The notes under the pieces were generated by a model. It did not search any database, was not told the DNA's origin, and was given only the letters and a program-made list of their open reading frames with translations. From Candidatus Nitrosomaritimum khambatensis (GTDB taxonomy: Archaea; Thermoproteota; Nitrososphaeria; Nitrososphaerales; Nitrosopumilaceae): DNA of 44,056 bases. Shown here piece after piece: positions 22,591 through 22,684 of this stretch; position 1 is the stretch's first letter, and the number at the start of each line of letters is the position of its first letter. The position numbers and the translations under genes were made by a program. Location: the NCBI GenBank assembly GCA_011773785.1, contig WVWY01000027.1:9965-54020 (forward strand), in the 5' to 3' direction.

Positions 22591-22684
22591 TGGTGCTCCA
22601 GCCGGGATTTTCATCGGAAGATTTTGAACCCGGGATCACTGCCTTGAAAGGGCAGTATGCTTGACCGGTCTACACCACTGGAAC
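22591..22684 (-). tRNA. tRNA-Glu(TTC) with a 15-nt noncanonical intron in the T-loop; CCA encoded (22591-22593)
   Basis: Reverse complement: acceptor GTTCCAG/CTGGAGC, anticodon arm ACTGCC-CTTTCAA-GGCAGT (TTC). T-arm CCGGG-TTCAAA-[ATCTTCCGATGAAAA]-T-CCCGG; removing the bracketed 15 nt (22608-22622) restores loop TTCAAAT. Confidence 0.92.

Follow-up and report, generated by a model that had tools for sequence, protein, structure and literature searches.

What is a 15-nt insert doing in the T-loop of an archaeal glutamate tRNA gene: is it an intron that is removed by splicing, a lasting part of the mature tRNA, or the mark of a gene in decay? We met this question at positions 22591-22684 (minus strand) of a 44,056-nucleotide stretch of DNA, the whole of which is called the window below, from an assembly of 1.37 Mb (89% complete) of an ammonia-oxidising archaeon whose close relatives are Nitrosopumilaceae, e.g., Nitrosopumilus, Nitrosarchaeum and Nitrosotalea. 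With a probability of about 97%, we consider the locus to be a functional, single-copy tRNA-Glu(UUC) gene with a short noncanonical archaeal intron of the bulge-helix-bulge (BHB) type in its T-loop, predicted to be spliced by EndA and RtcB; this intron would have been present early in Nitrosopumilaceae and later cleanly lost several times. The preliminary description had called an archaeal tRNA-Glu(TTC) gene here, which both direct reading and ARAGORN bear out. From 22684 to 22591 the minus strand reads GTTCCAG TG GTGT AGACCGGTCAA GCAT A CTGCC CTTTCAA GGCAG TGATC CCGGG TTCA AA/A TC TTCC GA TGAA AA/T CCCGG CTGGAGC A CCA, with slashes at the predicted cuts, and comprises the following features, given together with the neighboring gene.

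22591-22684, minus strand: tRNA-Glu(TTC) gene with encoded CCA, by direct sequence reading
22623..22684, minus strand: 5' exon, from the acceptor 5' strand to T-loop position 59, placed by the cloverleaf of the spliced form (ARAGORN)
22608..22622, minus strand: intron of 15 nt, ATCTTCCGATGAAAA, between positions 59 and 60, placed by its exact difference from intron-free orthologs, with the register set by relatives
22591..22607, minus strand: 3' exon, with T60, T-stem 3' strand, acceptor 3' strand, discriminator A and encoded CCA
22646..22648, minus strand: anticodon TTC (Glu, GAA codons)
22629..22633, minus strand: T-stem 5' strand CCGGG, outer helix of the BHB
22602..22606, minus strand: T-stem 3' strand CCCGG, outer helix of the BHB
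22625..22628, minus strand: exon strand TTCA of the central 4-bp helix, paired in all family copies, with compensatory change of TTCA/TGAA to TCCA/TGGA
22610..22613, minus strand: intron strand TGAA of the central 4-bp helix
22622..22624, minus strand: 5' bulge AAA, predicted cut after the second A; exon AA invariant in 44/44, intron base A, T or C
22607..22609, minus strand: 3' bulge AAT, predicted cut after the second A; exon T invariant in 44/44, preceding intron base A, G, T or C
22614..22621, minus strand: inner hairpin TC-TTCC-GA, a 2-bp intron helix with a 4-nt loop
21698..22549, minus strand: putative prenyl (GGPP-type) synthase gene, directly downstream and outside the intron; a conserved neighbor, used as tree marker

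Read directly, the T-arm forms a BHB of the strict 3-4-3 type whose hairpin is very short. Cuts placed behind the second base in both bulges take out exactly ATCTTCCGATGAAAA, as had been proposed. Considering the source genome alone, the runs of A allow several 15-nt cut registers that yield identical mature RNA. The register is fixed at 59/60 (i.e., a position other than 37/38) because it is unambiguous in 19 distinct relatives, one of which (L179) belongs to another family, and 59/60 is the sole register that gives the mature sequence in them; the position assigned in the preliminary description thus stands.

Two plain gene callers handled the locus poorly with the insert in place. On the unspliced gene, ARAGORN called tRNA-Glu(ttc) with wrong bounds (22608-22683) and with a false T-arm and acceptor stem, while without ATCTTCCGATGAAAA it drew a normal cloverleaf, CCA end included, whose acceptor stem has 7 bp; this restores the canonical TTCAAAT T-loop that had been anticipated and that several intron-free orthologs carry identically. 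The Rfam tRNA model scored the intron-bearing gene at 18.9 bits, under its cut-off of 29, versus 58.7 and 59.7 bits for intron-free orthologs. The expectation that standard callers would miss or mis-score the gene therefore holds for ARAGORN and the plain Rfam model; tRNAscan-SE 2.0 was built for such introns (PMC8450103). Elsewhere in the source assembly, eight loci (L026, L027, L031, L032, L034, L035, L037 and L038) hold further tRNA genes, missed by ARAGORN, that by eye appear to carry inserts in the D-loop or around the anticodon, and a tRNA at the window edge (1-47, G000:C37:9931-10011; anticodon TTT by eye) is broken by an NN assembly gap.

The motif is conserved among relatives. The 94-nt gene was matched in 195 of 200 family genomes, most of the matches listed being full-length at 84-99% identity, and the same BHB could be parsed in all 65 of the intron-bearing copies that were fetched. 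Upon collecting 62 distinct intron strings, we found a perfect central helix (4/4 pairs) in 60 of the 61 tested, the exception being L179 of the outgroup family f2 with 3/4 pairs, so that the perfect motif claimed from a single sequence extends across the family. The bulge bases on the exon side (AA and T) were the same in all 44 distinct copies, their intron-side neighbors varied (A/T/C and A/G/T/C, respectively), and the hairpin loop took 37 different forms. Intron length ranged from 14 to 22 nt within the family and reached 26 nt in an outgroup copy; with few exceptions the inner helix was TC/GA, G387 having CC/GG instead and two members of genus g11 GCC/GGC.

In a 30-row alignment, all 810 pair cells were standard, and the covariation score was 0.219, compared to 0.080 for shuffled and at most 0.091 for slid partners. 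One pair of the central helix changed jointly from UA to CG (TCCA/TGGA) in 6 of the 30 rows, spanning three genera; only this pair covaries because the exon half of the helix is the near-universal TTCA, which keeps most pairs invariant. A 4-bp Watson-Crick central helix arose in 0.31% of random 15-mers of similar composition, and this together with a 2-bp inner helix in 0.026%; conservation and covariation among relatives remove a chance origin of the motif altogether. Thermodynamic folding of the single sequence favored an internal loop and a 3-bp hairpin (AUC/GAU) over the BHB; hence, the case for the BHB rests on comparison and on the known preference of EndA, and not on free energy.

Some observations from these comparisons stand apart. 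The mature tRNA-Glu(TTC) of L070, L083, L084, L092, L093 and L121 (genera g2, g18 and g22) has C at T-loop position 55 (TCCAAAT), not the near-universal U/pseudouridine, and in these genes the partner base in the intron changes along with it; C55 also occurs in two intron-free genomes (L137 and L167). A copy of this thaumarchaeal tRNA gene on a contig of a Chitinophagaceae-labelled metagenome-assembled genome (L287, JAGXRG010000055.1) probably reflects a binning error. A TGATGA-like string in some copies suggested a C/D-box guide, a reading that we rejected, as 15 nt are too short and the base preceding GATGA varies.

The comparison of orthologs for presence and absence of the intron, proposed in the preliminary description, yielded a family-wide intron with several intron-free relatives: tRNA-Glu(TTC) lacks it in a set of genomes of the Nitrosopumilus group, in genus g5, and in two genomes of g18. 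In the Nitrosopumilus group, the intron-free T-arm is GGGTTCAAATCCCGG, exactly the predicted spliced product, and that of the g18 pair reads GGGTCCAAATCCCGG. The gene that directly follows the tRNA in all 70 loci examined, which putatively encodes a GGPP-type synthase, served as the marker for a tree on which the intron state changes at least 5 times (bootstrap range 5-6), indicating that precise loss occurred repeatedly. One intron-bearing genome, G108 (L335), is nested among intron-free relatives on this tree, possibly through regain, transfer or parallel losses.

The check for a splicing endonuclease that had been suggested found two EndA genes in the genome (L125 and L126). For the product of 178 aa, phmmer gives an alignment to the catalytic alpha subunit of Aeropyrum pernix EndA (E 1.3e-41) in which the active-site Tyr, His and Lys are shared and K35 stands, without a gap, opposite A. 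pernix K44; this Lys of the Crenarchaea-specific loop confers broad specificity on the Aeropyrum enzyme (PMC6379350). The product of 187 aa is a weaker EndA match without the aligned His, as would be expected for a beta subunit, and the pair represents a catalytic alpha and a separate structural beta subunit, with a predicted alpha2beta2 assembly. RtcB ligase homologs are present as well; this one small genome has three RtcB-family genes (G000:C11:97743-99047, C3:62680-63987 and C8:596-1786).

We suggest that the precursor folds with the T-stem, the 4-bp TTCA/TGAA helix and the 2-bp hairpin forming the bulge-helix-bulge, upon which an EndA of the alpha2beta2 type would cut each 3-nt bulge after its second base, and RtcB would join positions 59 and 60 into a normal TTCAAAT T-loop. 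The released 15-nt intron would be discarded or circularised, presumably having no further role. As the normal T-loop fold is impossible before splicing, splicing should precede T-loop modification.

If the 15 nt were instead never spliced out, leaving the mature tRNA with an enlarged T-loop, the fold favored for the single sequence, a hairpin within that enlarged loop, would be accounted for. Retention gives no reason, however, for the exact intron-free orthologs, the restored cloverleaf, the confinement of variation to the intron side, or the compensatory changes in the helix, and the genome encodes EndA; we give it next to no credence. A decayed or disrupted gene, with tRNA-Glu(TTC) supplied from elsewhere, would fit the scores of plain tRNA models below cut-off and the 89% completeness of the assembly. 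Such a second intact gene, which the preliminary description had named as evidence against its own proposal, was found neither in the source genome nor in eight near-complete family genomes, which are mostly single-contig chromosomes: each genome holds one TTC and one CTC gene. The cells thus appear dependent on the intron-bearing gene, whose exons are conserved with compensatory stem changes and whose insert is kept throughout the family. Decay is therefore largely refuted, and we judge it exceedingly improbable.

Why the intron should be kept at this site is a separate matter. Following the shield idea of Randau and Soll, as cited in PMC3218864 and PMC4033280, the intron might split the T-loop and 3' half, the attachment site of integrating elements. 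With a single exception, the tRNA-targeting elements of Thaumarchaeota indeed lie in the 3' portion of the gene (PMC6563490), which is where this intron sits, and in the 70 loci the downstream gene directly adjoins the tRNA, with no integrated element found between the two. The 20 intron-free loci among these are equally free of elements, however, of the 39 thaumarchaeal tRNA integrations known, 10 lie in tRNA genes with introns (PMC6563490), and the several independent losses argue against strong selection for keeping the intron. We therefore regard protection from integration as an unlikely reason for its persistence. At one intron-free locus, L322 (G194), AGCACCA recurs ~28 bases downstream of the tRNA, possibly left behind by an old insertion at the 3' end of the tRNA.

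The tRNA-Glu intron has counterparts beyond the family. A strict intron pattern matched only in f1; a looser pattern, some matches of which were plainly not tRNAs, and direct reading of outgroup genes revealed same-site introns elsewhere, and a restriction of the intron to one family was dropped. Both tRNA-Glu genes of family f2 (L152 and L179; G200) have same-site introns with an imperfect central helix (relaxed BHB), tRNA-Glu(CTC) of f3 (L178; G201) likewise has an intron at this site, and further families of the order carry longer ones there. Similarly shaped mini-introns at 59/60 were also seen in non-Glu tRNAs of DPANN archaea (Micrarchaeota, Woesearchaeota and Nanoarchaeota) and one Marsarchaeota-labelled metagenome-assembled genome (L220, L232, L246, L257, L258, L260, L261, L267, L274, L278 and L303). 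It is conceivable, at rather long odds, that 59/60 is a recurrent landing site for tRNA introns common to thaumarchaea and DPANN, occupied by nearly the same mini-intron (NTC..GATGAANN), which either moved from one lineage to another, perhaps through reverse splicing, or was repeatedly rebuilt because EndA favors it, with U55 turning into C55 together with its intron partner in some genera.

The novelty implied in the preliminary description is correspondingly weaker, given that the intron is family-wide, that versions of 14 nt exist, that introns at this site are widespread among other archaea, and that noncanonical thaumarchaeal introns, which it had rightly treated as established, are described (PMC8450103). 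None of the papers searched names this exact T-loop intron of tRNA-Glu(TTC); GtRNAdb may already list it for cultured Nitrosopumilus. Overall, the intron is conserved across Nitrosopumilaceae, but it is an ordinary one of an already known type. Its interest lies in being a very small tRNA intron with boundaries fixed to the base by comparison alone and with several independent precise losses, which makes the introns of this family a good test set for the size limits of EndA (14-22 nt) and for tRNA intron loss. In practical terms, annotation of this archaeal family with ARAGORN or the plain Rfam tRNA model gives wrong bounds for an essential tRNA or overlooks it.

Among known systems, the closest are the noncanonical BHB introns of Thaumarchaeota and Crenarchaeota (PMC8450103; PMC3218864), which are likewise short, at noncanonical positions, and of the 3-4-3 type, and are associated with alpha2beta2 EndA; the covariance model of tRNAscan-SE 2.0 was trained on the thaumarchaeal ones, finding 107 in its Thaumarchaeota set (PMC8450103). 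There is no difference in kind from these, the tRNA-Glu intron being distinguished by its 14-22 nt, its family-wide presence and its single isoacceptor. Caldiarchaeum subterraneum, of a related lineage, also has introns in its tRNAs (PMC3293823), a likeness at the level of the T-arm. The permuted tRNAs of Thermofilum pendens and Cyanidioschyzon (PMC3218864) share the identical 59/60 junction, but their gene halves are swapped, whereas the tRNA-Glu gene has a plain intron in normal order. The tRNAs of Micrarchaeota, Woesearchaeota and Nanoarchaeota share the site, the TTCA/TGAA helix and even the TC/GA hairpin, a TC..GA likeness that is partly one of selection since the search pattern demanded it, and they carry the intron in other tRNAs (e.g., Arg and Asp) rather than in tRNA-Glu.
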